A stretch of DNA of 25,397 nt, taken from IMG/VR virus record IMGVR_UViG_3300048113_000529, positions 1-25,397 of that record; one strand, 5' to 3'. Under the pieces are notes generated by a model that was given only the letters and a program-made list of their open reading frames with translations, did no database searches and was not told where the DNA came from. Positions 8,153-25,397 of the stretch are shown one piece after another. The position numbers were made by a program, and so were the translations under genes. Every line of letters starts with the position of its first letter. Position 1 is the first letter of the stretch. This DNA is from a virus.

Positions 8153-8424
8153 TATCTTCTACCCTCATTCTTGAGAATGGAAGACAAAGGTACTACACTA
8201 GACACATTAGCGGGTCTGAGTAATCGGTATGAATCGGTATCCCAACAGAAGAAAAGAAGAGTATTGTCAGTTTCCTTGGCTCTATTCTTCTTTTTCTGAA
8301 TGTAGGGAGTTGTGAAGTCCAGAGTACAAACATTGTACTTTAGCTTTTTGGAGTGTTCGCTACGATAAGTAATAACGGCATCCCCATAGTCATGCACTAA
8401 ACGTGCTAGTTCTTGCTTTTTCAC
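8152..8424 (-). CDS. Conserved phage protein of unknown function
   Basis: 90 residues from GTG 8424, preferred over an upstream TTG because AGGAG lies 6 bases before the GTG. The sequence is beta-rich, with DYGDAVITYRSEHSKKLKYN and LLFFCWDTDSYRLLRPANV as the most distinctive blocks; the first half is basic. I recognise the block pattern from other phages but no function. It is coupled to the PC4-like gene by a TAATG overlap, so it could be a nucleic-acid-related accessory protein. Confidence 0.75.
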   Translation of the reverse strand: MKKQELARLVHDYGDAVITYRSEHSKKLKYNVCTLDFTTPYIQKKKNRAKETDNTLLFFCWDTDSYRLLRPANVSSVVPLSSILKNEGRR

Positions 8425-8502
8425 TTTAGCTCCTTGGTAGTAATTCAGCAATTTTTATTGCGAATCTACTTACTGCGAGGTGCTTTTGCTAGATACAAGA
8501 AT

Positions 8503-8528
8503 ACCCCGCTAGCCGAAACTAGCAGGGT
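8503..8528 (-). terminator. Stem-loop downstream of HTH gene, probable attenuator
   Basis: Minus-strand ACCCTGCTAG and CTAGCGGGGT pair over 10 bp (one G-T) around a 6-base TTTCGG loop, ending 7 bases after the stop of the 8535-8978 gene. The following T tract is weak (ATTCTTG), so read-through to the next genes is expected. Confidence 0.6.
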
Positions 8529-8534
8529 TAGTAT

Positions 8535-8978
8535 TTAACCTTCGTTAATTGCTTGAATTACTTTAGTGAAATACTGAGATGCTTTACCAGTCAACTTAGC
8601 AATGATTTCTTCATCTACTTCTTGACCTGCATCTCCAAGTGCGGCAATAAGTGCTTCTGCAGCAGCTGCTTTAGATACACGAGTACCGCCTCCTGTAGTA
8701 CCTCCGCTAGATTTAGCGGCGGGAGTTTTCTTAACATAAACGCCAGCTTTTGTTAAGATCATACGAACACCATTAGGTGATTCGTCTAGTTCTTCTGCAA
8801 TATCTTTCACAATCTCCATACTGGTCTCTGGAGTTGGTTCTGCTTCTTCGTACATTGATACTGCTTGTGCTTTTTTATCGTCGTCCCAAGCCACTTTGCG
8901 TGTCCTCTTGTTAGGGTTTTTGTTTCCTGGGCAATTACCCAGTGCTTGTAGTTGTTGAGTATAGAATCTGTCCGACAT
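8535..8978 (-). CDS. HTH DNA-binding protein of a widespread phage family
   Basis: 147 residues from ATG 8978 (GGAAG upstream; a TTG 15 bases earlier is less likely). After a short N-terminus comes a helical unit (VAWDDDKKAQAVSMYEE, then IVKDIAEELDESPNGVRMIL) that reads as a helix-turn-helix ending in AGVYVKK. A Gly/Thr/Ser-rich linker follows at about 92-103, then a second helical domain with RVSKAAAAEALIAAL and VDEEIIAKLTGKASQYF. The LAxE...S..SI..KL..xGVY-like pattern links it to the 20132-20452 and 21927-22256 proteins. No enzyme motif. Probably an abundant DNA-binding or transcription factor. Confidence 0.8.
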   Translation of the reverse strand: MSDRFYTQQLQALGNCPGNKNPNKRTRKVAWDDDKKAQAVSMYEEAEPTPETSMEIVKDIAEELDESPNGVRMILTKAGVYVKKTPAAKSSGGTTGGGTRVSKAAAAEALIAALGDAGQEVDEEIIAKLTGKASQYFTKVIQAINEG

Positions 8979-9009
8979 TTTTTCTTCCTTCAACTCAATT
9001 TGAAAAGAT

Positions 9010-9039
9010 ATTATACGCGGATTTCAGCATCTTTGTCAA
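9010..9039 (-). promoter_or_regulatory. Sigma70-type promoter for HTH gene 8535-8978
   Basis: TTGACA (9034-9039), 18-base spacer, TATAAT (9010-9015); the start codon follows about 32 bases downstream of the -10 element. Confidence 0.85.
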
Positions 9040-9049
9040 GAAGTATTTT

Positions 9050-9769
9050 TTACAACCTCTCGATTCTTACTCCGTACTCTCGTAAATGTTCGAGCTTACA
9101 TAGCTCATAGGCAGGAGCATACGCAGAGAACCCGCCCGAAACTACATTTGAAAAGAAGGTGTCCTCATTTTCTACCTTTTGACGAACATAGATAGAGTAT
9201 GCAGGACATCCATACTTCTTCTCGTAATCAAAAGCGGTCATACCCTTTTTACCGGCTAAAAACTCGGGGGTAAGTCTGCTCTTAACTTCTACTGCCGCAT
9301 GATATGTAGCCGACCAGGCAACCTCGCCCTCTACAAAATCATCAGACATACACTCATCAGGGTAGTAGTGAGCTGTCAGTCTTTCGTCTTTTCCTGCGGG
9401 TCTTTGCGGGACTCCAACTCTTTCAAGAATAGCCCGTACAAAGGATGGACTTCTGAAGAGTGACTTGCTGATATCTGTGATAGTATCTCCTGTGAGGTAG
9501 CTTTCGCACGCTTCAGCGATTTCTTCGCGTGACGCAGGACGACCTCGCAGAGACTGTTTTCTTTTCTTGACATATGCTTTTCTGTCCTCATAATCCTCGA
9601 TAATCTTATTCAGCCTAGTTGTGTTATAGGCTATATTTAGAATATCACAGGCTTCTTTCTTTGTTATAGGTTTTTCCGAAGAACTGGGGCTTAGAAGTGC
9701 TATCACCTTCTCTATGTTTTGATTCGATAAGTTCTCGTAACTCTTTTTCTTTACTGTTGCTCTTGCCAT
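9050..9769 (-). CDS. Probable HTH regulatory protein
   Basis: 239 residues from ATG 9769 with GGAG upstream. The N-terminal half is basic and has two HTH-like units: about 36-62 (TKKEACDILNIAYNTTRLNKI) and about 80-118 (REEIAEACESYLTGDTITDISKSLFRSP, continuing SFVRAILERVGVP). The second resembles resolvase-type HTHs. The C-terminal half is mixed alpha/beta (FSAYAPAYELCKLEHLR near the end) and unrecognised. Its first 125 bases overlap the 3' end of the upstream MazZ-like gene in another frame, an unusually long overlap. A transcription regulator is the best guess; the target is unknown. Confidence 0.8.
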   Translation of the reverse strand: MARATVKKKSYENLSNQNIEKVIALLSPSSSEKPITKKEACDILNIAYNTTRLNKIIEDYEDRKAYVKKRKQSLRGRPASREEIAEACESYLTGDTITDISKSLFRSPSFVRAILERVGVPQRPAGKDERLTAHYYPDECMSDDFVEGEVAWSATYHAAVEVKSRLTPEFLAGKKGMTAFDYEKKYGCPAYSIYVRQKVENEDTFFSNVVSGGFSAYAPAYELCKLEHLREYGVRIERL

Positions 9770-13816: not shown

Positions 13817-14022
13817 TACTGGTTAATGAGTCCAAGGTCAAAACCTCTCTTTACAAGCTCATTACGATACTTTTGCTTGTGCTTAGGCTTTGTATTGCTA
13901 CTTAGTAGTGCTGATACCAACTCTTCTTCTGAAGTGTTGCGTAGGTAATAATGAACCGTCTTGTAGGTTTTCGCCTGACGGCTAATCAAAATTTTTGCTG
14001 ATTCTTTAAACTTTGCTGGCAT
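13816..14022 (-). CDS. Small basic protein of unknown function
   Basis: 68 residues, Lys/Arg-rich, predicted mostly helical (FKESAKILISRQAKTYKTV; HKQKYRNELVKRGFDLGLI). No motif recognised. The gene lies between the glutaredoxin and a 59-residue ORF and overlaps both, as part of one transcription unit from the 14358-14462 promoters. Confidence 0.7.
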   Translation of the reverse strand: MPAKFKESAKILISRQAKTYKTVHYYLRNTSEEELVSALLSSNTKPKHKQKYRNELVKRGFDLGLINQ

Positions 14023-14185
14023 TTTCTTTCTCCCGTTGGTATTCTAATTTAAGATCTTTGTAGCATCTCTCTGCTACTCGCTTGTCTCTGGTTCTCATGT
14101 ACAGGTTATGTGCATCTTCCACCTTATAGATAGGGTCTGAGACGCAACCATCATACTCTATAGTTATTTCGAGTTTATTCTTCAT
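14006..14185 (-). CDS. Small hypothetical protein
   Basis: 59 residues: MKNKLEITIEYDG followed by a charged helical part (VEDAHNLYMRTRDKRVAER, KDLKLEYQREKENASKV). It overlaps its upstream neighbour by 11 bases and its downstream neighbour by 17, the spacing typical of this operon, which is the main support. No family recognised. Confidence 0.62.
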   Translation of the reverse strand: MKNKLEITIEYDGCVSDPIYKVEDAHNLYMRTRDKRVAERCYKDLKLEYQREKENASKV

Positions 14186-14312
14186 CTAAGTGCAGTAGTC
14201 CTTCATCTACCAAGTGTTCGATAGTTGCTTCAATACCTTCTTGCTTGCCTAGAGCATGACAGGTCATTCCACACCCTATCACACAAAATGCAAACACAGC
14301 ATATTCTAACAT
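14175..14312 (-). CDS. Small membrane protein, first gene of the leftward unit
   Basis: 45 residues from ATG 14312 behind GGGAGAA. Residues 2-20 (LEYAVFAFCVIGCGMTCHA) are hydrophobic and probably a membrane segment; the rest is acidic (IEATIEHLVDEGLLHLDEE). A longer frame upstream would run through two promoters and is rejected. Function unknown. Confidence 0.68.
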   Translation of the reverse strand: MLEYAVFAFCVIGCGMTCHALGKQEGIEATIEHLVDEGLLHLDEE

Positions 14313-14357
14313 AAAAATTCTCCCTTTGTGAATTGGTTTCTCCATTTCAGAATAAGT

Positions 14358-14386
14358 ATTATACGCATAAATAAGGATATAGTCAA
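14358..14386 (-). promoter_or_regulatory. Sigma70-type promoter, leftward, proximal
   Basis: TTGACT (14381-14386), 17 bases, TATAAT (14358-14363); about 45 bases before ATG 14312. It drives the glutaredoxin/lysis unit together with the next promoter. Confidence 0.85.
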
Positions 14387-14433
14387 GAAATATCTTTACA
14401 ATGCTAATAAATTTTTTACTTTCTTTTGGGGGA

Positions 14434-14462
14434 ATTATACTTAACTTTATATAGAATGTCAA
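14434..14462 (-). promoter_or_regulatory. Perfect consensus promoter, leftward, distal
   Basis: TTGACA (14457-14462), 17 bases, TATAAT (14434-14439), exact consensus. It stands in tandem behind 14358-14386 and back to back with the rightward promoter at 14495-14523, with 32 A/T-rich bases between the two -35 elements. Confidence 0.88.
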
Positions 14463-14494
14463 GAAGAATTTTTGAGCGACCTCAAAAAAATTTC

Positions 14495-14523
14495 TTGACA
14501 ACCAACCCGCTTTCGGATATAAT
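14495..14523 (+). promoter_or_regulatory. Perfect consensus promoter, rightward, at the ATG
   Basis: TTGACA (14495-14500), 17 bases, TATAAT (14518-14523). Only six bases (AATCGC) separate the -10 element from ATG 14530, so the expected transcription start is the A of the start codon. Confidence 0.88.
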
Positions 14524-14529
14524 AATCGC

Positions 14530-14703
14530 ATGAAAAAATATAAAAGAAAGCCTTGGACTGACGAAGAGCGCAAAACACTTGCTGCTCACTACTTCTACCA
14601 AGATATTAAAGCAATGATGTATATGTTACCCGATCGAACAGAGCAGTCTATTCGTAATCAGGTTGCATATCTAAGAAAAAGAGGATACAGGTTTAAAAAA
14701 TGA
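14530..14703 (+). CDS. Small SANT/HTH-like DNA-binding protein, apparently leaderless
   Basis: 57 residues, basic. KRKPWTDEERKTLAAHYF, then DIKAMMYMLPDRTEQSIRNQ and a basic end (LRKRGYRFKK) match the three-helix SANT/Myb-like or HTH plan: W9 and the E-rich first helix, then a recognition helix with TEQSIRNQ. It resembles the repeats in the 5307-6032 protein. No ribosome site is possible if transcription starts at 14530. It heads the rightward cluster and overlaps the next gene by ATGA, so it may regulate the divergent promoters (inference). Confidence 0.75.
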   Translation: MKKYKRKPWTDEERKTLAAHYFYQDIKAMMYMLPDRTEQSIRNQVAYLRKRGYRFKK

Positions 14704-14783
14704 TACTAGATAATACGCAGATAGCCATAGTTTTTGCAATCTTAATTTTCTGGATCTTCGCCAGAGATAGGGATGATTTATGA
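14700..14783 (+). CDS. 27-residue single-TM peptide
   Basis: MILDNTQIAIVFAILIFW followed by IFARDRDDL: one hydrophobic segment and a charged C-terminus. It shares ATGA overlaps with both the HTH gene before it and the bS21 gene after it, so its translation may couple the two. Function unknown; it could act only as a coupling ORF. Confidence 0.55.
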   Translation: MILDNTQIAIVFAILIFWIFARDRDDL

Positions 14784-14989
14784 ATGTTAAAGTACGTAAT
14801 GGTAACGTTGAGCAAGCACTACGAATTTTCAAACGTAAAATTACCGACAGCAATAAGCTGTTCGATTACCGAGAAAAAGAATACCACGAAAAAAGAACAA
14901 CCAAGCGACAAAAAAAGAAAGCCGCAGCAGTTAATCGAGAAAGAAAACGACAACAAAAGCTGGCAGAGAAACCTTTTCCCTTGAAATAG
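14780..14989 (+). CDS. rpsU: Ribosomal protein bS21 homologue
   Basis: 69 residues, close to the 71 of E. coli bS21, and strongly basic. The family pattern is clear: VKVRNGNVEQALRIFKRK (E. coli: VRENEPFDVALRRFKR), then FDYREKEYHEKRTTKRQKKK with AAAVNRERKRQ, matching the RR(E)xYEKPTxxRxRxxxAAVxR part. bS21 sits on the 30S platform near the anti-Shine-Dalgarno end of 16S rRNA and affects initiation. Phage-encoded bS21 is known from marine and other viral genomes and is thought to replace or compete with host bS21. It lies directly before another promoter (14993-15021). Confidence 0.92.
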   Translation: MNVKVRNGNVEQALRIFKRKITDSNKLFDYREKEYHEKRTTKRQKKKAAAVNRERKRQQKLAEKPFPLK

Positions 14990-14992
14990 TTC

Positions 14993-15021
14993 TTGACAAC
15001 TTGCCTAAACAGGCGTATAAT
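14993..15021 (+). promoter_or_regulatory. Perfect consensus promoter after bS21
   Basis: TTGACA (14993-14998), 17 bases, TATAAT (15016-15021), starting 3 bases after the bS21 stop. Expected start about 15028, with the next ATG at 15045 behind GGGAGAA. Confidence 0.88.
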
Positions 15022-15044
15022 ATCTATATTAACTGGGAGAACAT

Positions 15045-15485
15045 ATGATAAACGTACAAACTGAAGGCAGAGACATATCCAAATACAGCACTTTTATTGA
15101 TGAGTGTATCATGTCCTTATTTCCTGAGGATGCAACTTATGACATCTACTTCGAGGTCAAGAAGTTCGTTGATAAAGACGGCTCTCATGCCGGTTTTTGC
15201 ATAGGTGACGATATTGAGTCTGTTATTAGTATCGCTACTCATTGGATATACGAAGACGGAGAGGAAATTCCGTATGAGCCACATGAGATGGCGGCTAATA
15301 TAGCACATGAGTTGGTGCACGCAAAACAGTTCTACAGGGAACAAATAAATATGGTAGATAACGTATGGAAGCACAATAATGTAAGAATTAACTGTGATAC
15401 CATAAAGTATGATGATCTGCCCTGGGAGGTCGAGGCTTACGCATATGAAGTAATACTCGCAGATCTATTATGGGAGAATGTATAA
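15045..15485 (+). CDS. Zinc metallopeptidase-like protein (HExxH)
   Basis: 146 residues. The zincin motif H88-E-L-V-H92 (NIAHELVHAKQF) is complete, and LPWEVEAYAYE (about 125-135) supplies a likely third, glutamate ligand, as in gluzincin-type minimal peptidases. The N-terminal part looks like the beta-sheet lead-in of such domains. No signal peptide, so it acts in the cytoplasm. Phage relatives exist, but the substrate is unknown; cleavage or binding of a host protein is possible. It has its own promoter. Confidence 0.85.
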   Translation: MINVQTEGRDISKYSTFIDECIMSLFPEDATYDIYFEVKKFVDKDGSHAGFCIGDDIESVISIATHWIYEDGEEIPYEPHEMAANIAHELVHAKQFYREQINMVDNVWKHNNVRINCDTIKYDDLPWEVEAYAYEVILADLLWENV

Positions 15486-15631
15486 TGATGGAAGTATTAG
15501 ATTTTTTAGGAGGACTTATTCTAGTAGCTTTATTTATAGCTATATCTTGGTCTATAATCTTACACAATAAAAATGAATATGATAAAATGAATAAAGAGGT
15601 AGAAAAAAATGACTCATCCCGCATTGGATAA
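15485..15631 (+). CDS. Small single-TM protein
   Basis: 48 residues: MMEVLDFLGG, then a membrane segment (LILVALFIAISWSIIL, 11-26), then a charged cytoplasmic-like tail (HNKNEYDKMNKEVEKNDSSR). GGGAGAA precedes the first of two adjacent ATGs; TAATG overlap with the peptidase stop. Function unknown. Confidence 0.68.
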   Translation: MMEVLDFLGGLILVALFIAISWSIILHNKNEYDKMNKEVEKNDSSRIG

Positions 15632-15818
15632 ACCTTACATACAACTAATCTGTAACCCCTACGAGCATCCTACATCTATCAACACTCGCGTCACTATTGA
15701 TGTAATGCAGAAAGATCTGTCAAGAGATGATATGATAGAAGTACTTGAAGGGTTTATGAAGGCAATGGGCTATTCTTTTAGCTCAAAAGAATCTCTTTGT
15801 ATCGAGGCATACGACTAA
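15609..15818 (+). CDS. Small hypothetical protein
   Basis: 69 residues with GAGG upstream of ATG 15609. It looks alpha/beta: NTRVTIDVMQ strand, then a helix SRDDMIEVLEGFMKAMGY, and an acidic end. It overlaps the preceding TM gene by 23 bases. No family recognised. Confidence 0.72.
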   Translation: MTHPALDKPYIQLICNPYEHPTSINTRVTIDVMQKDLSRDDMIEVLEGFMKAMGYSFSSKESLCIEAYD

Positions 15819-16057
15819 TGACTCCTCAAGAGATTGTAGATCATAAACGTAAGTGGATGATGGCCAGTTACCATGAAAGTACTGTACATACTGACCTTCG
15901 GAGTCAGGTGAGAGAGTGGTGTAAAGATCACTGCTTTCAATGGAGATACGACATTAAACACTTTACAGATGTTTACTTCGACACTGTAAGGTTTGAACTA
16001 GAAGAAGATTTTTACGCATTTAACCTTTGGTATATAGGAGTTTGGAAGGGTGACTAA
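15818..16057 (+). CDS. Small hypothetical protein, aromatic-rich
   Basis: 79 residues from ATG 15818 (TAATG overlap; a TTG 21 bases earlier is less likely). Rich in Trp, Tyr, Phe and His: SQVREWCKDHCFQWRYDIKH and DFYAFNLWYIGVWK. One Cys pair (CKDHC). Soluble, unknown. Confidence 0.75.
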   Translation: MTPQEIVDHKRKWMMASYHESTVHTDLRSQVREWCKDHCFQWRYDIKHFTDVYFDTVRFELEEDFYAFNLWYIGVWKGD

Positions 16058-16217
16058 GTTTTGGATTGCATGGAAGCACGCATTAGGTTCTTTTGATGAA
16101 GAAGATGGGTACGACAGCAAGAATGAGAACATCATCTCCGTGATACGTACTTTTATTGTACTCTCAAACTTAGCGTGTGCTTATATTATTATGTGGAATA
16201 TTATTAGGAGTTGGTGA
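16050..16217 (+). CDS. Small single-TM protein, paralogue of 16496-16699
   Basis: 55 residues from GTG 16050 with AGGAG upstream. An amphipathic start (TKFWIAWKHALGSFDEEDG) is followed by NENIISVIRTFIVLSNLACA and YIIMWNII, a membrane segment. Its order W-x-x-W/A-K-x-x-LG ... N-x-I-x-VIR ... TM repeats in the 16496 gene, so the two look like an ancient duplication. Function unknown. Confidence 0.62.
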   Translation: MTKFWIAWKHALGSFDEEDGYDSKNENIISVIRTFIVLSNLACAYIIMWNIIRSW

Positions 16218-16483
16218 TGGAAACAGTAGTAAATTGGTATAGAATAGTAATGGATCTAAGATACAACCCTTTGAGGTTTATTCCTGATCCTGTACTGCAG
16301 GGCTACTTACTCATGGCCTTATTTGTAATGTGGTCAGGCTTCTTTGGTCTGATTGCTATGTTTTACTTGGGTTGGCTGGGATATAGTATCCCTGTTTCAA
16401 TAGCGGTACACTTGTCAATAATTGTACCTACCATTATTACAAATGCAGTCTTTTTAGATGCAGAGCGAAAGAGTAAAAGCTAG
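16217..16483 (+). CDS. Membrane protein with two or three TM segments
   Basis: 88 residues from ATG 16217 (AGGAG six bases before; TGATG overlap with the previous stop). Hydrophobic segments at about 28-53 (GYLLMALFVMWSGFFGLIAM) and 56-80 (YSIPVSIAVHLSIIVPTIIT). The ends are charged. It stands between the two paralogous small TM proteins. No family recognised; a role at the host inner membrane is likely. Confidence 0.78.
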   Translation: METVVNWYRIVMDLRYNPLRFIPDPVLQGYLLMALFVMWSGFFGLIAMFYLGWLGYSIPVSIAVHLSIIVPTIITNAVFLDAERKSKS

Positions 16484-16495
16484 AGGTGTACACCT

Positions 16496-16699
16496 ATGAA
16501 ACTAAGAACATGGAGCAAGATTAGAATGTGGTGGAGAATTTGGGCTAAATCATTGGGGGAGAAAGTTGGTGAAACTGATCGACAAGCAAACACTATTGCT
16601 GTTATTCGCAGCATCTGGTGGTTTACACATATGGTTACTTGTTTGGCAATTATACTTAACGCAGTAGCAAACCATGGCTGGGGGTTAATAGGTCTATGA
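16496..16699 (+). CDS. Small single-TM protein, paralogue of 16050-16217
   Basis: 67 residues. Basic, Trp-rich start (KLRTWSKIRMWWRIWAKSLG), then ETDRQANTIAVIRSIWWF and a membrane segment (THMVTCLAIILNAV). The ribosome site lies in a perfect 12-base palindrome, AGGTGTACACCT (16484-16495), directly before the ATG, which could hide or expose it. Function unknown. Confidence 0.72.
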   Translation: MKLRTWSKIRMWWRIWAKSLGEKVGETDRQANTIAVIRSIWWFTHMVTCLAIILNAVANHGWGLIGL

Positions 16700-16911
16700 T
16701 TGACTCCGTTAATGCAGTTAATGCGGTTCAGGTAGTTAGTAGCTATACTAAAGTATATCCTGTAAAAGATAGCTTAGTCTTTTCTCAAGTGAAACACCTT
16801 CAAGACAGAGGGGCTTCCTTTGTAGAAGCAGTTAACTATGTTTCATATAACTCTCAGGCTGAACTTGAAAGATCACATAGTTCTGGAACAAATATTGATG
16901 TGGTAACTTAA
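16696..16911 (+). CDS. Small hypothetical protein
   Basis: 71 residues, ATGA overlap with the gene before. VNAVNAVQVVSSYTKVYPV and SLVFSQVKHLQDRGASFVEA suggest a mixed fold; Ser/Val-rich, no Cys, no TM segment. It is the last gene of this cluster before a 120-base gap with a weak promoter. Confidence 0.7.
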   Translation: MIDSVNAVNAVQVVSSYTKVYPVKDSLVFSQVKHLQDRGASFVEAVNYVSYNSQAELERSHSSGTNIDVVT

Positions 16912-16969
16912 TAGTTGATATATTTAAGAATTCTATTATTGATCTGGCTAGCTTTCTCTATTAAATTGG

Positions 16970-16998
16970 ATGACGACCTATACGGGGTTCGTTATAGT
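16970..16998 (+). promoter_or_regulatory. Possible weak promoter
   Basis: ATGACG (16970-16975), 17 bases, TATAGT (16993-16998) in the 121-base gap before the 17033 gene. Less close to consensus than the others. Confidence 0.4.
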
Positions 16999-17032
16999 AT
17001 AAACACACTATTGGAATGCAGGAAGGTAAAAC

Positions 17033-17290
17033 ATGAGGCGTAGAAGGAGATTATTTATGGGAAAACACACAGTATTAATGATTGACCCGCCCGAAGGGTG
17101 GAAGTATGGGTTTCCTCGACCTGCGCCTCAGAACTGGGGTTTATGGGAGTGGGAGAAAAAGAAAGAATGGTATATTGAACACGACTATCCTGAAGAAAAA
17201 ATTGATAGCTATGGCACTTCATTCTATGTTACAATGTACCATGTTGAAGTTGAGAATAATTATTTACAAGGTAAGGCAAATTTATTATGA
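17033..17290 (+). CDS. Small hypothetical protein
   Basis: 85 residues from ATG 17033 (AGGAAGG upstream), which gives a run of Arg (RRRRR) at the N-terminus. A second ATG at 17057 has an equally good GGAG and would give MGKHTVLMIDPPEGWKYG, 77 residues; which is used cannot be decided. The body is rich in Trp, Tyr and Pro with a Lys/Glu helix (EWEKKKEWYIEHDYPEEK). No family recognised. Confidence 0.72.
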   Translation: MRRRRRLFMGKHTVLMIDPPEGWKYGFPRPAPQNWGLWEWEKKKEWYIEHDYPEEKIDSYGTSFYVTMYHVEVENNYLQGKANLL

Positions 17291-17775
17291 AAGTAAAACT
17301 TGGTAATTATAAAGATAATGGAAAACGAAAGATCTCTGTAAAAATTGATAAGTATGATACTTGGTCAATGGATCATACTCTCGCATTCATAGTACACCCG
17401 ATGCTACTTCAGCTTCGTGATACTACTAATGGGTCTCCTTTCATAGAGCTTGAAGATCGACCCGAGCACTTGATCGGAACTATACCTGTACGTGAGCGTG
17501 GAGATATTGATGAGTTTCATCATGATGCATGGCAATGGGTACTTAATGAGATGATTCATGCTTTTGAATCAAAGCTTCAAGATGACTGGCAAGAACAGTT
17601 TTACTCTGGGGAGGCAGACTGGGAGATGGAAGATACGGAAAAAGATTTTAGCAAAGTGGTAAAAGGACCAAACCATACACTCGAAGTTGATGTAGAAGGT
17701 ATGAGGGTATACCAGGAACGCATTAGTAACGGCTTTCGTCTGTTTGGTAAGTATTACGAAAACTTGTGGGATTAA
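17287..17775 (+). CDS. Conserved phage protein of unknown function
   Basis: 162 residues. The blocks YDTWSMDHTLAFIVHPMLLQ and FHHDAWQWVLNEMIHAFES are well known in T4-like and other myovirus or marine phage genomes as a hypothetical family; I know of no function. The acidic middle (GEADWEMEDTEKDF) and an aromatic C-terminus (GFRLFGKYYENLW) follow. Soluble. ATGA overlap with the previous gene. Confidence 0.88.
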   Translation: MKVKLGNYKDNGKRKISVKIDKYDTWSMDHTLAFIVHPMLLQLRDTTNGSPFIELEDRPEHLIGTIPVRERGDIDEFHHDAWQWVLNEMIHAFESKLQDDWQEQFYSGEADWEMEDTEKDFSKVVKGPNHTLEVDVEGMRVYQERISNGFRLFGKYYENLWD

Positions 17776-17777
17776 TA

Positions 17778-17969
17778 ATGAAGTGGTTTAAGTTCAAAAA
17801 AGTCAAAGTATTTGATGCTATGAAGGACGATGTAGATCCTTCAGAGCTTACAATTGAAAACGCATACAAAACAAGATGGATATGGTATCACACTATATTA
17901 GCAATAGGTATCTTTTTTACAAATGTATTGTTAATAGCAATACTTGTAATATTAGGAATAAAACTATAA
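17778..17969 (+). CDS. Small single-TM protein
   Basis: 63 residues from ATG 17778, two bases after the preceding stop. A basic start (KWFKFKKVKVFDAMKDD) is followed by WIWYHTILAIGIFF and TNVLLIAILVILGI, a membrane segment of about 25 residues near the C-terminus. The plan (charged, then aromatic, then TM) recalls the 16050 and 16496 proteins. The ribosome site is weak. Confidence 0.7.
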   Translation: MKWFKFKKVKVFDAMKDDVDPSELTIENAYKTRWIWYHTILAIGIFFTNVLLIAILVILGIKL

Positions 17970-18166
17970 TGAGAAGAGGGAGACCTAGACCAATAAGCAC
18001 AGAATCCTCTCCTTGTATAAAAGTATGTGAGTTTAAGAAAGGAGCAGAGGAGTGCAAAGGTTGCTATCGTACCATTGACGAGATTCGTAACTGGATAATA
18101 ATGACAGATGAAGAAAAAAGAGCAATAAAGGAGAAGATACATGAGCGACGCAACGCACGGGGGTAA
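17969..18166 (+). CDS. DUF1289 family small cysteine protein
   Basis: 65 residues from ATG 17969 (TAATG overlap). The DUF1289 signature is clear: SPC16...C20 (SPCIKVC), C29-K-G-C32, then YRTIDEIRNWIIMTDEEKRA. Four cysteines in CxxxC...CxxC could bind zinc or an iron-sulfur cluster. In bacteria the family is small and of unknown function; phage copies are less often noted. The N-terminus (RRGRPRP) is basic. Confidence 0.85.
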   Translation: MRRGRPRPISTESSPCIKVCEFKKGAEECKGCYRTIDEIRNWIIMTDEEKRAIKEKIHERRNARG

Positions 18167-18398
18167 GGGAGATAGAGATCGTACTAGCAATAAAGAAGCT
18201 TTCTGGAGAAACTATGAGAAGGTCTTTGGCAAGAGAGATGCACCCGTAGAGATTTCGGAAAAACCTCTTACTCAGGTACAAATTGACCGCAAATTACGAG
18301 AGTGGGGCATGATGTATGATTGCCTACAAAATCTTTCTTTATATGATTACCCTATAGAGGAAGCTAAAGAGCTACTAAAACAAATAAAAATTTCTTGA
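18141..18398 (+). CDS. Small conserved phage protein
   Basis: 85 residues from ATG 18141 with AAAGGAGA upstream. It starts SDATHGGKGDRDRTSN, a Gly/His/Arg-rich start common in small phage proteins, then helices (EAFWRNYEKVFGK; LTQVQIDRKLREWGMMYD). It overlaps the DUF1289 gene by 26 bases. Its stop codon touches the -35 element of the next promoter. Function unknown. Confidence 0.75.
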   Translation: MSDATHGGKGDRDRTSNKEAFWRNYEKVFGKRDAPVEISEKPLTQVQIDRKLREWGMMYDCLQNLSLYDYPIEEAKELLKQIKIS

Positions 18399-18423
18399 CA
18401 ACTATGGTGAATGCGAGTATAAT
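18395..18423 (+). promoter_or_regulatory. Perfect consensus promoter for the NTP-PPase gene
   Basis: TTGACA (18395-18400), 17 bases, TATAAT (18418-18423); -35 overlaps the stop codon of the preceding gene. Confidence 0.88.
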
Positions 18424-18455
18424 ATACGCATAAACAAGAAAATAGGAAGAAAAAA

Positions 18456-18842
18456 ATGAGCAGTATGAATATTAGTAATTTTGAAAAGGTTGGTGATTTT
18501 ATGGAGGCCTTCGGTCAAGAAGTTCTTTATATACCCACTCGACCTGATTCTAACCTCGCGGCATTACGCCTCGATTTAATTGAAGAAGAAGTACAGGAGC
18601 TAAGAGATGGACTTGGAAGAGGTAGTTTACTTGAGATTGCAGATGCACTTACAGACATACTCTACGTTGTATACGGAGCTGGTCACGCCTTTGGCATTGA
18701 TCTTGACGATTGCTTTCATGAAGTTCACCGCAGTAACATGACTAAGCTAGGTGAAGATGGTCGTCCTCTTTATCGAGAAGATGGTAAAGTAATGAAAGGC
18801 CCGAACTACGAAGAACCTGATCTAACCCAATATATACTTTAA
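18456..18842 (+). CDS. HisE/MazG-superfamily NTP pyrophosphohydrolase
   Basis: 128 residues. The metal-binding helices carry E-E-E-x-x-E (LIEEEVQELRDG, about 42-53) and E-x-x-D-x-x-x-D (EIADALTDILY, about 60-70), with a third helix GAGHAFGIDLDDCFHEVHRS followed by NMTKL, a signature of phosphoribosyl-ATP pyrophosphohydrolase-like phage enzymes. It should cut (d)NTPs to monophosphates; the natural substrate cannot be read from sequence. The C-terminal tail (GKVMKGPNYEEPDL) is typical of phage members. It is first in a promoter-led group of four genes. Confidence 0.9.
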   Translation: MSSMNISNFEKVGDFMEAFGQEVLYIPTRPDSNLAALRLDLIEEEVQELRDGLGRGSLLEIADALTDILYVVYGAGHAFGIDLDDCFHEVHRSNMTKLGEDGRPLYREDGKVMKGPNYEEPDLTQYIL

Positions 18843-18853
18843 AGGAGAAAAAT

Positions 18854-19060
18854 ATGACTGATGTAGTAGAATTAACTATGTTTGACGAGTTTAATACAGT
18901 AGATGAAAAGCACGAATTTGAGATTGTTGAAAACGGTTTTGTGCTCAGAGTAAACGGACGTGGACATGATGACAACTGGCTTGCAAAAACCTTTGTCTTT
19001 GATGTACAAGAGGAATTTTACGCTGCCATTACTAGACTCACTCAGATGGAGCGTTCATAG
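18854..19060 (+). CDS. Small acidic hypothetical protein
   Basis: 68 residues, GGAG upstream of ATG 18854. Beta-strand-like FEIVENGFVLRVNGRGHDD then WLAKTFVFDVQEEFYAAI; acidic. No motif recognised. Confidence 0.72.
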   Translation: MTDVVELTMFDEFNTVDEKHEFEIVENGFVLRVNGRGHDDNWLAKTFVFDVQEEFYAAITRLTQMERS

Positions 19061-19323
19061 TGAAATACTTTGTCGTTGAAACCGTAGCTACTTACCATAT
19101 GAAATACTTAGTTGCACAGCCTGACCATCATCAATCTGAGTGGTGTCTGGACTCTGTAGTCTGTGAAGATGCTGATGATTTTCATCAAAACTATCTAGGA
19201 GAACAGGTACTTGGCTACAAGGAAGTAGACGACAAACAACTTATGTCTGAAGTAGAGAACAGCTACGTTGCTGAATGGGGCGTAGACCAAATTAAAGAAG
19301 TCTTTGCGAGGGTGGTGAAATGA
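19060..19323 (+). CDS. Small hypothetical protein, GTG start
   Basis: 87 residues from GTG 19060, whose G is shared with the preceding TAG stop. KYFVVETVATYHMKYLVAQP, then SEWCLDSVVCEDADDFHQNY and a C-terminal helix. Acidic and soluble. No family recognised. ATGA overlap with the next gene. Confidence 0.72.
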   Translation: MKYFVVETVATYHMKYLVAQPDHHQSEWCLDSVVCEDADDFHQNYLGEQVLGYKEVDDKQLMSEVENSYVAEWGVDQIKEVFARVVK

Positions 19324-19535
19324 GTGAAATGCTAATGAGATACAATGGTTACGTACACCAGATGTGGATGAAAAACTGTGATGAGAGAGCAGCGTGGTGC
19401 CAACCCGTACTTACAAAATCTGAGTATGAAGCTGAGCATGGTACTTTTTTACAAGACAACTTTTATATAGTGGAGATGGGAGACAAGGTTTGGAATGGTA
19501 AAGAATACGTTAATCCTACCCCTCTTCGAAAATAA
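19320..19535 (+). CDS. Small hypothetical protein, last of the rightward cluster
   Basis: 71 residues. RYNGYVHQMWMKNCDERAAW and a C-terminal DNFYIVEMGDKVWNGKEYV, which looks beta-rich. Two Cys, no paired motif. It ends the rightward cluster; no clear intrinsic terminator follows. Confidence 0.72.
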   Translation: MSEMLMRYNGYVHQMWMKNCDERAAWCQPVLTKSEYEAEHGTFLQDNFYIVEMGDKVWNGKEYVNPTPLRK

Positions 19536-21837: not shown

Positions 21838-21927
21838 TTAGCCTCCTAATAGCATAATAAATAAAGGAAAAGAGAATAGCGTGGCTACAAACCACGCTAG
21901 TCCATTGTATCGCTCTGCTACTGACAT
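21838..21927 (-). CDS. 29-residue single-TM peptide
   Basis: MSVAERYNGLAWFVATLF followed by SFPLFIMLLGG. Its ATG overlaps the HTH stop as TAATG and its end carries the ribosome site of the next gene. The frame also contains a 7-bp hairpin (21878-21898). It may be real or a translated attenuator. Confidence 0.5.
   Translation of the reverse strand: MSVAERYNGLAWFVATLFSFPLFIMLLGG
21878..21898 (-). terminator. Stem-loop after HTH gene, possible attenuator
   Basis: Minus-strand AGCGTGG, 7-base loop, CCACGCT, then ATTCTCTTTT, about 30 bases after the stop of the 21927-22256 gene. Confidence 0.5.
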
Positions 21928-22256
21928 TATCGTGCCTGAATAAGAGCAAGTAGGTTTTGCAGATCAGCTTTAGAAGCCTTCTCAAGAGTAGGGAAACCTC
22001 CCTGAGCACCAAGCTCAGTCTGAATCTCAGCTACAATCTCTGCTTTGCGTACTACTGGAGTACCAGTTTTAGTTACTCGTGGAGCTGCAACATAAACACC
22101 TTCGCGTACTAGCTTTGCAACGATTGAACGAGTGCTTTTGTTGAACTCAGACGCTAGTTTTGCAACTGTGTCTTTTGTTGGGTTATCTTGGTAGTCAGCA
22201 ACCATTGCGTCAACCATTTCGTCAGTGTAGTTAGGGGTTCTTTTTACTTCAGTCAT
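21927..22256 (-). CDS. HTH DNA-binding protein, paralogue of 20132-20452
   Basis: 109 residues from ATG 22256 behind GGGAGAAAA; a longer frame would run through the promoter at 22302. The N-terminal HTH is TVAKLASEFNKSTRSIVAKL followed by VREGVYV; the C-terminal unit ends LEKASKADLQNLLALIQ. The two units are joined by a basic Pro/Thr linker (APRVTKTGTPVVRKAEIV). Probably an abundant DNA-binding protein. Confidence 0.85.
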   Translation of the reverse strand: MTEVKRTPNYTDEMVDAMVADYQDNPTKDTVAKLASEFNKSTRSIVAKLVREGVYVAAPRVTKTGTPVVRKAEIVAEIQTELGAQGGFPTLEKASKADLQNLLALIQAR

Positions 22257-22301
22257 ATTTTTTCTCCCGAAAAATTTGGTTAATGTCGATTTAATACAAG
22301 T

Positions 22302-22330
22302 ATTATACGCGGTTGTGAGTGTTCTGTCAA
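22302..22330 (-). promoter_or_regulatory. Perfect consensus promoter for HTH gene
   Basis: TTGACA (22325-22330), 17 bases, TATAAT (22302-22307), starting 4 bases from the stop of the upstream gene. Confidence 0.88.
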
Positions 22331-22333
22331 GAA

Positions 22334-22606
22334 CTATTTCACCTCTTTTGGCAACCATTCCCAAAAGAATTCGTCACCATTTACCATGTCGATAACTTCC
22401 TCGTCATCTAACTCCCAGTCGTCCTCAATGTCGCCATTGTCGTAAAGTTCGTCACGCCACTGGTAGATCTGAGCTTCAAACTGCTCTTTAGTGTAGAACT
22501 CAAACTCGCCATCAGCGATATTAAATGCTACAACATCAGGTAGCTCAGGAGCTTTAGTAAGTTCACCTTTAGGGTCGTGTAGTACGCCGTTCATCCAGTA
22601 TGCCAT
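22334..22606 (-). CDS. Small acidic hypothetical protein
   Basis: 90 residues, GAGG before ATG 22606. AYWMNGVLHDPKGELTKAPE, a middle with FNIADGEFEFYTKEQFEAQI, and a very acidic C-terminal third (DNGDIEDDWELDDEEVIDM) ending WEWLP. Strong negative charge and aromatic residues would suit a DNA-mimic or a protein inhibitor, but this is speculation. It is transcribed alone from the 22652 promoter. Confidence 0.8.
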   Translation of the reverse strand: MAYWMNGVLHDPKGELTKAPELPDVVAFNIADGEFEFYTKEQFEAQIYQWRDELYDNGDIEDDWELDDEEVIDMVNGDEFFWEWLPKEVK

Positions 22607-22651
22607 GTCAATTTCCTCAAATGTTTGGTTGTTTTTTTAATTTATGCGTGT

Positions 22652-22680
22652 ATTATACGTGGAGTTAAGTACCTTGTCAA
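22652..22680 (-). promoter_or_regulatory. Perfect consensus promoter at the edge of the repeat array
   Basis: TTGACA (22675-22680), 17 bases, TATAAT (22652-22657), driving the 22334-22606 gene. Confidence 0.88.
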
Positions 22681-22788
22681 ATGTTTTTTAAGCAATTGTC
22701 GAAAATAAACGCAACTTAATTCCGGGGGGCCGGACACGACCTCGGCGTGTCAAGAATTATTTGCCCAAATTGTCAAAAATTATCATAA

Positions 22789-22817
22789 ATTATATCGCAC
22801 CCGCCCAGGTTTGTCAA
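22789..22817 (-). promoter_or_regulatory. Perfect consensus promoter, leftward, inside the array
   Basis: TTGACA (22812-22817), 17 bases, TATAAT (22789-22794). Two further TTGACA copies lie downstream at 22771-22776 and 22748-22753, 23 bases apart, without good -10 partners. Confidence 0.75.
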
Positions 22818-22863
22818 GACTAGACTTAATTTGCCCGAATTTGCAGCAACTCGCAAAAAGTAC

Positions 22864-22893
22864 TTGACAGCGCAAGCTGGAGTACTGTATAAT
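22864..22893 (+). promoter_or_regulatory. Promoter of repeat module I, first copy
   Basis: TTGACA (22864-22869), 18 bases, TATAAT (22888-22893) on the plus strand, with no gene downstream on that strand inside the window. Confidence 0.7.
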
Positions 22894-22957
22894 CGGCGCC
22901 ATTTTGAGCAAGACTTGACCAAACGGCATTTAATTGGTGCCCGGTCACAAAAAAGAC

Positions 22958-22986
22958 TTGACAAGTTCGCTCGCGTACTGTAAAAT
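22958..22986 (+). promoter_or_regulatory. Promoter of repeat module I, second copy
   Basis: TTGACA (22958-22963), 17 bases, TAAAAT (22981-22986). Shares GTACTGTA and AATCGGCGC with the first copy. Confidence 0.6.
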
Positions 22987-23202
22987 CGGCGCGGAGCATC
23001 CGACGCAAATCGTCGTCGTACTACTACTGGCGCGAGCGCGCCGATTTGTCAACCTCTTTGCTGAAAAAAAGACTTGACCATTTGGTGGCAATTCGGTCAC
23101 ACGTTTTTGAGGCCCATACAAAATAATCGTTGACGTACTACTGGCGCCCCCGCGCCAAAAATTTTTGTCAAGACCTGCTCAACAAATAATTTTTCTTGAG
23201 GC

Positions 23203-23231
23203 AAAAAAAAATGTTCCACATGGAACATTTT
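23203..23231 (-). terminator. Intrinsic terminator of the PPK2 operon, parS-like sequence
   Basis: Minus-strand AAAATGTTCC, 4-base loop, GGAACATTTT, continuing to nine T residues. It lies 40 bases after the PPK2 stop. The core TGTTCCACATGGAACA also differs from the ParB site consensus TGTTNCACGTGNAACA only in the centre. Confidence 0.75.
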
Positions 23232-23252
23232 ACGGGTCTACAGCCAGGCCAG

Positions 23253-23279
23253 GCTAAATGAGAATGGTTCTCATTTAGC
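23253..23279. repeat. 12-bp perfect inverted repeat over the PPK2 stop codon
   Basis: GCTAAATGAGAA, TGG, TTCTCATTTAGC. The right arm contains the last codons and the TGA of the PPK2 gene. No T tract follows on either strand; it may protect the mRNA 3' end in series with the terminator. The AATGAGAA...TTCTCATT core resembles a Fur box, probably by chance. Confidence 0.75.
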
Positions 23280-23888
23280 TAAATAATTATTTAAGCGCGT
23301 TATAAATTCCAATCTGCCCGCTTTTTTATCGTCATAATTTACAGAGTGCCATTTTCCGCAATTATTAAATACAGTCTCTTTTGCAATTGTATATTCATCA
23401 TATTGCGCAATCGCTTTTTTGTCGTTCGGTGACATTTTCCAATATTTTAGCGGTGATAATTCGCGTTCCGTCAGTCGAGAGATTTGTTCGCGCTCCGAGA
23501 TTGAGAGCCACATTTTTATAAAAGTAACATTTTGGGATTTCTCCCAATCTAAAACCCTAGCCATAAAATTGCGATATTGTTTATCAGAACACCAGTTATT
23601 GATTTTTTGGCACATTGCGCGAGAATACCACGACCGATCATAAAAAACAATTTGACCCTGCTGAGGCATTTTGTCTGCCCAATAGCCTAGCCAGTTAGCC
23701 ATTACCGATGGGCTAGGTTTATTTGATAGGCAAACGCTAAACCATGCCGGATTTAGATATTGCGTCAATTCGCGGATAGTACCAGATTTTCCGGCCGAGT
23801 CCCGGCCTTCTAAAATAACAGCAATTGGCTTGCTGTTATTTTCTGCCAGTTTGTTCAGTCTAGCTTGCTGAGTTTCTAAAGCGTTCAT
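23271..23888 (-). CDS. PPK2-family polyphosphate kinase
   Basis: 205 residues. The three PPK2 signatures are in order: Walker A ILEGRDSAGKSGTIRELT (about 26-43), Walker B FYDRSWYSRA (about 82-91), and the lid/C-terminal part LKYWKMSPNDKKAI (about 146-159), then a YDDKKAGRLEFI block. PPK2 enzymes transfer phosphate between polyphosphate and nucleotides, often making NDP/NTP from NMP/NDP. Lengths above about 230 are usual, so this is a compact, single-domain form. Subclass cannot be told. Its ATG overlaps the exonuclease stop as ATGA. In a phage it could draw on host polyphosphate for nucleotides. Confidence 0.9.
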   Translation of the reverse strand: MNALETQQARLNKLAENNSKPIAVILEGRDSAGKSGTIRELTQYLNPAWFSVCLSNKPSPSVMANWLGYWADKMPQQGQIVFYDRSWYSRAMCQKINNWCSDKQYRNFMARVLDWEKSQNVTFIKMWLSISEREQISRLTERELSPLKYWKMSPNDKKAIAQYDEYTIAKETVFNNCGKWHSVNYDDKKAGRLEFITRLNNYLAK

Positions 23889-24604
23889 TTAGTTTTGCTC
23901 CCGTGAATATTTTTGTCATTTTCAACCGCGCGATCCTGAACCAATCGCCAAGGTTGTGCATTTACCTTGCCGTATGGTACGCGTTTTTTCTGAGCAAAGC
24001 AAGAGGCGAGAATTTGAGTCTCAATAATCGCATCGCTGAGGGCAGTATGATCCTCAATAAAATCGGGATTGTTGCTAGTGTATCGGTAGCAAAATTCCGC
24101 ACCAGTCTTGATGTTGCCAGCAGGCGAAACCCAACCATTTGCGCGAGCCAGTTTTTTGTAGGTTTTTTGGGAAAGTTTAGTCTCGCAAGCGAATTGCCAA
24201 ATATCGAGAACCTGCAAACCAGAAGGGCAAACTGGTGAGCCGTCACCTAATAGCGCGTTTGTTGAGCGCATAACGCGCAGATCAAAACCGGCATTGTATG
24301 CGCTGATAGTCGAAATATTAAATTCTGCAATATCAGCGCGTATCTGATCAACAATAGTTTGCCAGTTTTCCAAACGCACCAAGCCATCATCTAGCATCGG
24401 GGCATAATGGGTAAACATTTTTTTGGCATAAAATGCGCCCATCATGCGGCTTGCATCAGTGAAAATCTCGCGCACCAGTGCGTTATAGGTTTTGTAGATA
24501 GTGCCATGCTTGTCGCAGATGGTATAGCCAACATCATAAACCGAACCGCTGAGATCACAAGTTTCAGTATCTAGCACCATAAAAACATTTTTTGAAATAG
24601 TCAT
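23885..24604 (-). CDS. DEDDh 3'-5' exonuclease
   Basis: 239 residues of a DnaQ/RNase T-like fold. Motif I is MVLDTET (D-x-E, about 9-15), motif II is YNAGFD (about 103-108), and motif III is EDHTALSDAII (H...D, about 183-193). The C-terminal ~40 residues are basic and unrelated. It may trim DNA or RNA ends and supply nucleoside monophosphates, which the adjacent PPK2 could rephosphorylate (inference). One base separates it from the HAD gene. Confidence 0.93.
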   Translation of the reverse strand: MTISKNVFMVLDTETCDLSGSVYDVGYTICDKHGTIYKTYNALVREIFTDASRMMGAFYAKKMFTHYAPMLDDGLVRLENWQTIVDQIRADIAEFNISTISAYNAGFDLRVMRSTNALLGDGSPVCPSGLQVLDIWQFACETKLSQKTYKKLARANGWVSPAGNIKTGAEFCYRYTSNNPDFIEDHTALSDAIIETQILASCFAQKKRVPYGKVNAQPWRLVQDRAVENDKNIHGSKTK

Positions 24605-25078
24605 TTATCCGATTCCCTGTAGTTTAGAATTTAATTGTACAGCATTTTTCGTTCGAATGCCAAGCTTTTCGGCCATTTCCAAAACGCCTAAATTGTCATC
24701 ATAAAAAACCGCATTACGCGCCCATCTTGCAAGAGGCTGATCTTTGAAATAATTAAACAGCAATTCCCTTTTTAAATCAGCATCGCCATCAGTGCAACCC
24801 ATTGGGCGAGATAAGATAGCTTCGGCCTTTAGATCATGGTGCGCTAAAAAAGCGTAGTCATGGACAGATAAAACGCGAGCAGTGCAAACAATAACAGTGT
24901 GCCCAGAGCGATAAGCCGAGCGCATCAAACGCGCCAGAGGTAGCAATTTATCAGCAAAGATTTTTTGCCGAGTGCAGTTGTCGATCCAGTGATCCAGATC
25001 AAGCGATCCATCAGCGCGAGTCAGTTGGCGGTGGCTTGAGTCGATCACAGTGTGATCTAAGTCAAAAATGTAAATCAT
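24605..25078 (-). CDS. HAD-superfamily phosphatase
   Basis: 157 residues. HAD motif I is FDLDHTVID (nucleophile D6, acid D8), motif II is VIVCTAR (Thr about 96), motif IV is FYDDN (about 125-129). A Lys in the LKAEAI or DLKREL region is motif III. The lack of a large cap and the early DHWIDN segment recall polynucleotide-kinase-type 3'-phosphatases and phage 5'-nucleotidases. Substrate unknown; end repair or nucleotide dephosphorylation fits its place next to an exonuclease. GGGAG precedes ATG 25078. Confidence 0.9.
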   Translation of the reverse strand: MIYIFDLDHTVIDSSHRQLTRADGSLDLDHWIDNCTRQKIFADKLLPLARLMRSAYRSGHTVIVCTARVLSVHDYAFLAHHDLKAEAILSRPMGCTDGDADLKRELLFNYFKDQPLARWARNAVFYDDNLGVLEMAEKLGIRTKNAVQLNSKLQGIG

Positions 25079-25081
25079 GGT

Positions 25082-25273
25082 TTACGCTCCCATGTTGGCG
25101 GCAAACCCGCCAATGCTGATTAAATTTAAAATGGTTAGATTGTGCATTCCCGCGTTCACAGATTGAATGGTCAATAACACCAGCCCGCAGATAGCGACAG
25201 GGATCACCAGAGTAAAGGCAAAAATTGCCATTAGCACCGCGCCTAAATATCCAGAGTAATCGTAAATGTTCAT
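25082..25273 (-). CDS. Small two-TM membrane protein
   Basis: 63 residues, AAGGA upstream of ATG 25273. Almost wholly hydrophobic: YLGAVLMAIFAFTLVIPVAI with CGLVLLTI, a short polar turn (QSVNAGMHNL), then TILNLISIGGFAANMGA. The spacing loosely recalls PQ-loop or SemiSWEET-type half transporters, but no PQ motif is present. First gene of the PPK2 operon, three bases from the HAD gene. Confidence 0.7.
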   Translation of the reverse strand: MNIYDYSGYLGAVLMAIFAFTLVIPVAICGLVLLTIQSVNAGMHNLTILNLISIGGFAANMGA

Positions 25274-25292
25274 AAAAAATTATCCTTTGTTT

Positions 25293-25330
25293 GAGGCATG
25301 AGTATATCATGCCTCGCCCATAAAATGCAA
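25293..25330 (-). promoter_or_regulatory. Promoter with operator-like palindrome for the PPK2 operon
   Basis: TTGCAT (25325-25330), 18 bases, TATACT (25301-25306) on the minus strand. The -10 element lies within a perfect 9-bp inverted repeat GAGGCATGA-TATAC-TCATGCCTC (25293-25315), a likely repressor or activator site. This promoter is weaker than the TTGACA/TATAAT class elsewhere. Confidence 0.6.
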
Positions 25331-25333
25331 CCC

Positions 25334-25397
25334 TTATTTAAGATTGCTCAATAATTTATTTAGAGCCGATCCGGTGGCCTTTTCTAGTCCGTCTAGC
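25334..25397 (-). CDS. C-terminal end of an upstream gene
   Basis: Only the last 20 codons are in the window, reading LDGLEKATGSALNKLLSNLK and then TAA. The helical, Leu-spaced pattern looks coding; identity cannot be told. Confidence 0.5.
   Translation of the reverse strand, partial: LDGLEKATGSALNKLLSNLK

Follow-up and report, generated by a model that had tools for sequence, protein, structure and literature searches.

How phage T5 halts DNA transfer once the first segment has entered has long been an open question. Entry is stopped at the injection stop signal (iss). Its repeats, palindromes and DnaA boxes have been proposed to bind components of the host and to block the second step of transfer, which was still described as poorly understood in 2026 (PMC13250531). 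The T5 map runs from terminase to the terminal repeat, with dmp as its first gene and other pre-early genes, then to iss at the inner end of that repeat and to the early genes. The iss holds DnaA boxes, several Fur-type boxes and repeats; at 9449-9708 of T5 (AY543070, L077), in the annotated iss, a run of Fur-type boxes adjoins the DnaA boxes. The literature searched mentions the DnaA boxes of iss and makes no mention of Fur boxes there. The other cultured T5-like phages examined also have clusters of Fur-type and DnaA boxes in their pre-early region, most clearly phiR2-01, Klebsiella GZ8 and the Aeromonas and Vibrio phages. Clusters of Fur-type boxes were seen at 8363-9390 of phiR2-01 (L340), at 9476-9546 of GZ8 (L341) and also in L332, L335 and L336. 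A good parS was found in none of 12 cultured T5-like phages.

The whole stretch of DNA analysed here (the window) is a 25.4 kb virus record of a T5-like phage. It encodes a DNA polymerase that shares 44-45 % identity with the polymerases of T5-like phages cultured on Aeromonas and Vibrio, together with a split NAD ligase, a D5-like regulator, a primase and a helicase. A DNA search with 22300-25397 against cultured phages gave no match, so the group looks uncultured in this collection.

The first-pass annotation had described a region without any credible gene at 22681-23202, with three module types, each present twice, in the order I-II-I-III-II-III. We agree on the lack of a gene, and all six modules are present in that order, at 22864-23171 on the plus strand. 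Module I occurs at 22864-22899 (TTGACA-18-TATAAT-C-GGCGC) and 22958-22992 (TTGACA-17-TAAAAT-C-GGCGC), module II at 22912-22949 (GACTTGACCA ... CGGTCACA) and 23071-23101, and module III at 23018-23052 (GTACTACTACTGGCGC-GAG-CGCGCC...TTTGTCAA) and 23135-23171 (GTACTACTGGCGC-CCC-CGCGCC...TTTGTCAA). The element extends beyond the six modules. On the left, a conserved G-rich leader, AATTCCGGGGGGCCG (22718-22732, plus strand), forms its outer edge. On the right the earlier extent proved too small, as a parS-type palindrome, TGTTCCACATGGAACA (23212-23227), and a Fur-box-type palindrome, GCTAAATGAGAATGGTTCTCATTTAGC (23253-23279), lie beyond it. The change of base composition that had been claimed is present but only slight, with GC going from about 0.40 to 0.43.

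At least ten TTGAC(A) elements on both strands had been reported, and we counted 10 TTGAC on both strands of 22681-23202 (mean 1.2 and maximum 6 in 1000 shuffles). TTGACA was found seven times in these 522 bp (mean 0.34 and maximum 3 in 1000 shuffles). GGCGC, with eight copies in the array and a shuffle mean of 1.8, and repeated 12-mer positions, ten with a shuffle mean of 0.04, were both above all 1000 shuffles. Eight of the 18 GGCGC of the window fall in the array, and GGCGC fits the T5 nick consensus PuGCGC. The array could be read as a cluster of site-specific single-strand nick sites, as T5 has a major nick inside iss, annotated at 9748. However, T5 nicks are dispersed over the genome whereas the modules stand at one place, and the array carries GGCGC on both strands, which makes this reading highly improbable.

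The stretch from 22652 to 22986 contains four perfect or near-perfect sigma-70 promoters, of which two point rightward and two leftward. The full promoter score of 12/12 is reached by the rightward one at 22864 and by both leftward ones, at 22817-22789 within the array and at 22680-22652 (TTGACA-17-TATAAT), the latter a promoter for the early genes on its left. The description of modules I as complete promoters holds, with 12/12 for the first copy and 11/12 for the second. GC-rich discriminators occur in sigma-70 promoters such as rRNA promoters, and module I has the same build, TTGACA-17/18-TATAAT-GGCGC, but no rRNA or tRNA gene follows the array and promoter-less copies of the core lie alongside. 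This core, TCGTCG..ACTACTACT and then GGCGC...CGCGCC, is common to modules I and III, and module III has no -10 element. Just as had been noted, only some -35 elements have a -10 partner, the remaining TTGACA copies standing without one. The further suggestion that many TTGACA copies serve a non-promoter purpose, for instance as protein-binding sites, gained support, because module III keeps the core without a -10 and usually without a -35, and because the array is joined to parS- and Fur-type sites. A structured non-coding RNA made from the module I promoters is scarcely credible. The plus strand of the window folds better than shuffles (z -4.1), but so does the minus strand (z -2.4), and the relative L047 is no better than shuffles (z -0.4 and -0.6). 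Searches against Rfam and for tRNAs found nothing, and the candidate RNA is left with no Rfam match.

Regarding conservation, we scanned with module III alone, using no gene, and obtained 61 viral stretches with 52 distinct arrays. Their gene neighbourhood is almost always the same. With the adjacent exonuclease-like protein as query, 53 related viral loci were recovered. These relatives are contigs, and some may derive from one population. A lack of conservation in relatives had been named as evidence against the element, and the outcome is clearly the opposite, as the modules and their order are kept. The array is retained in the closest relative, and the exact order I-II-I-III-II-III is found in L004 and in L006, where it reads leader-I-II-I-III-II-III. 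More widely, the order leader–I–…–III is kept in T5-like phages with only 50-70 % identity in the neighbouring exonuclease, and repeated promoter-like units followed by parS appear in this order in about 50 related viruses. Of 49 arrays, only 10 had a recognisable module II, and the leader was present in 30 of the 37 with enough upstream sequence; the lasting parts of the array are the leader, module I and module III. The modules are confined to one place per record, and the short motifs with the widest distribution show an enrichment of about 10- to 500-fold relative to the rest of the same phages. We also considered module III as a bacterial element and rejected this, since its 24 matches in bacterial genomes are scattered and none occurs with the phage genes.

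The arrays are closed by a parS palindrome. With at most one mismatch, TGTTYCACGTGRAACA is present in 43 of the 48 arrays with enough flank, 22-203 bp past the last module III, and is absent from the other 430 kb of the same loci. Array phages usually have one such site. At 30 of the 43 sites it is exactly TGTTCCACGTGGAACA, and the site in the window differs from this by one mismatch. The palindrome is within the published bacterial parS consensus (PMC4368675). Published P. aeruginosa sites include TGTTCCACGTGGAACA and TGTTCTACATGGAACA (PMC4368675), the first being parS2 and parS3 of this species and also a P. putida site (PMC4368675, PMC7022226). The array site belongs to the same 16-bp palindrome class as the chromosomal parS of the ParABS systems of P. 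aeruginosa and P. putida (PMC4368675, PMC7022226), but it sits in a T5-like phage, mostly as a single copy, with no phage ParB found. Members of the ParB_N family were detected in none of 16 phage records, although the family was matched in 11 of 14 control genomes, so the expected binder would be the ParB of the host. As a candidate intrinsic terminator, parS was rejected. No T-run follows the hairpin on the plus strand at any of the 43 sites, so array parS is generally no terminator; an A-run precedes it in 4 of 43, which is a T-run on the minus strand, and the palindrome of the window does score as a terminator on that strand. Exact consensus parS is frequent in viral contigs in general (at least 239 stretches, L081-L319), and few of these 239 carry the array. 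In some parS-bearing viral contigs the site is present 5-12 times, and such contigs may represent prophages, plasmids or pieces of bacterial DNA.

A Fur-type palindrome was found within 400 bp after parS in 12 of 48 arrays, and in other cases it stands beyond the dmp block, on the side away from the array. The palindrome beside the array is of the TGAGAATNATTCTCA type, like Fur boxes, and belongs to one class with the boxes in the T5 iss, but no iron gene adjoins it, and Fur would be its predicted ligand.

On the parS side of the array, the window encodes on the minus strand an adjoining polyphosphate kinase 2-like protein (PPK2; 23271-23888), an exonuclease-like protein (PHROG 20187, with a weaker match to PHROG 192, DNA polymerase exonuclease subunit; 23885-24604) and a relative of the T5 pre-early gene dmp, deoxynucleoside-5'-monophosphatase (29 % identity; 24605-25078). 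Past the leader, the next conserved gene usually encodes a predicted DNA-binding protein of 145 aa (PHROG 1725; 21927-22364, minus strand), and in part of the group a protein of 90 aa with no assigned function (22334-22606, minus strand) is present. In the long contigs in which these genes are present, the map reads TerL - dmp/exonuclease-like/PPK2 block - (Fur) - parS - III - I - leader - DNA-binding gene - D2/D3/ligase. PPK2 is on the other side of the array in several contigs. The array sits between the dmp-holding block and the early genes, as iss does in T5; "pre-early" here refers to the dmp relative and its position in T5, not to expression data. In two contigs, G003 (L016) and G004 (L020), the dmp-exonuclease-PPK2 block is inverted, and the orientation of the array to the early genes is unchanged. 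These two contigs lack parS.

The orientation of the block bears on the main rival explanation, a promoter-operator region for temporal control. Under it, the tandem module I promoters would drive transcription in the direction of the pre-early block, and the core of modules I and III would be the binding site of a phage regulator, possibly the PHROG 1725 protein, with no role in DNA entry. The module I scores of 11-12 of 12, the single core common to both module types and the predicted DNA-binding gene adjoining the array all agree with it, and in two contigs, G003 and G004, transcription from these promoters would read dmp-exonuclease-PPK2 in the sense direction. In most contigs, however, the promoters run antisense into the block, because the block is in the other orientation there, and a promoter-operator alone leaves parS unexplained. 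We regard it as rather doubtful; the remaining rivals, namely an origin, a decoy, nick sites and a structured RNA, have weaker support still.

An origin had also been suggested. Initiation could then be promoter-primed, with parS alongside as in bacteria, whose parS sites lie near oriC (PMC4368675). No other long, conserved repeat region without genes accompanies the array, which has a single location in each genome, and in G009 the cumulative skew minimum coincides with it. In G005, however, the minimum is elsewhere, and skew follows the gene strand, for example at 67-78 kb of that contig, so GC skew is uninformative about an origin. No DnaA-box cluster lies near the array. The suggestion gained no direct support, and we consider an origin unlikely.

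Compared with iss, the array is likewise non-coding and repeat-rich, with Fur-type palindromes and a position between a dmp-holding block and early genes, and both have repeats, palindromes and candidate sites for host DNA-binding proteins, whose binding to the array is predicted. T5 has DnaA boxes and GTGCAAATCCGACA-type repeats, whereas the array group has parS and the promoter and module III units. In the long contigs, the flanks of the array lack TTATCCACA, and a search for A1 and A2 relatives at E 1e-5 found none; the array has no DNA similarity to the T5 iss. The two share a kind of site and not a sequence, because the cultured phages are without a good parS and the array group is without a DnaA-box cluster. 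The T5 iss stops DNA entry until A1/A2 act; for the array group a stop would be assigned by analogy.

Our best explanation, which we put at a probability of about 45 %, is that the array makes up most of a cis-acting region for docking and control, placed where pre-early genes meet early genes and most likely working like the T5 iss. As it stands at the map position of iss, it may be where incoming DNA first engages host DNA-binding proteins. The sites, their conservation and order, the single place per genome, the position and the fixed orientation are observed; from them we infer host-protein binding and a function in entry and switching. Tandem sigma-70 promoters with the GC-rich GGCGC discriminator, a parS of the chromosomal type as predicted target of host ParB, and the adjoining Fur-type box that part of the group carries would attract abundant host proteins, with module III as promoter-less copies of the module I core within the docking region. 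Host RNA polymerase, ParB and Fur would assemble on the array once the segment enters the cell, and the complex would hold or time both DNA entry and the switch from pre-early to early genes. The strong promoters, usually without a downstream sense gene, are not explained by a pure entry-stop model. In a more specific form, which we put forward tentatively, these phages would carry parS fused to a promoter and operator array at the limit of the DNA that enters first. ParB of the host, a protein that loads at parS and spreads along DNA, would hold or time entry together with RNA polymerase and Fur, and would replace the DnaA of T5 and its cultured relatives. Sites close to consensus for several host factors lie within about 600 bp, and the array could instead be a decoy soaking up host RNA polymerase, ParB or Fur. 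This is very unlikely, as there are few sites per genome, usually one parS, against abundant proteins, and a decoy has no need for a fixed order, position and orientation.

On the reading as a docking region, the array would be a second, different design at the iss map position, in which parS takes the place of the DnaA boxes of T5 and Fur-type sites are common to the two. By this analogy, the comparison suggests a general rule that the border of the first-entering DNA may be marked by sites for abundant host DNA-binding proteins. Conservation of a host-type parS in T5-like phages that encode no detectable ParB of their own would also amount to a new role for bacterial centromere proteins.

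Five contigs (L024, L029, L031, L050 and L051) terminate in or beside the array, which is expected of an assembly break at repeats or of terminal-repeat ends. Elsewhere in the window, at 14000-19500, the series of minus-strand genes is broken by a plus-strand block of small genes, one of them encoding a MazG-like pyrophosphohydrolase (18456-18842), and this block reverses the GC skew.
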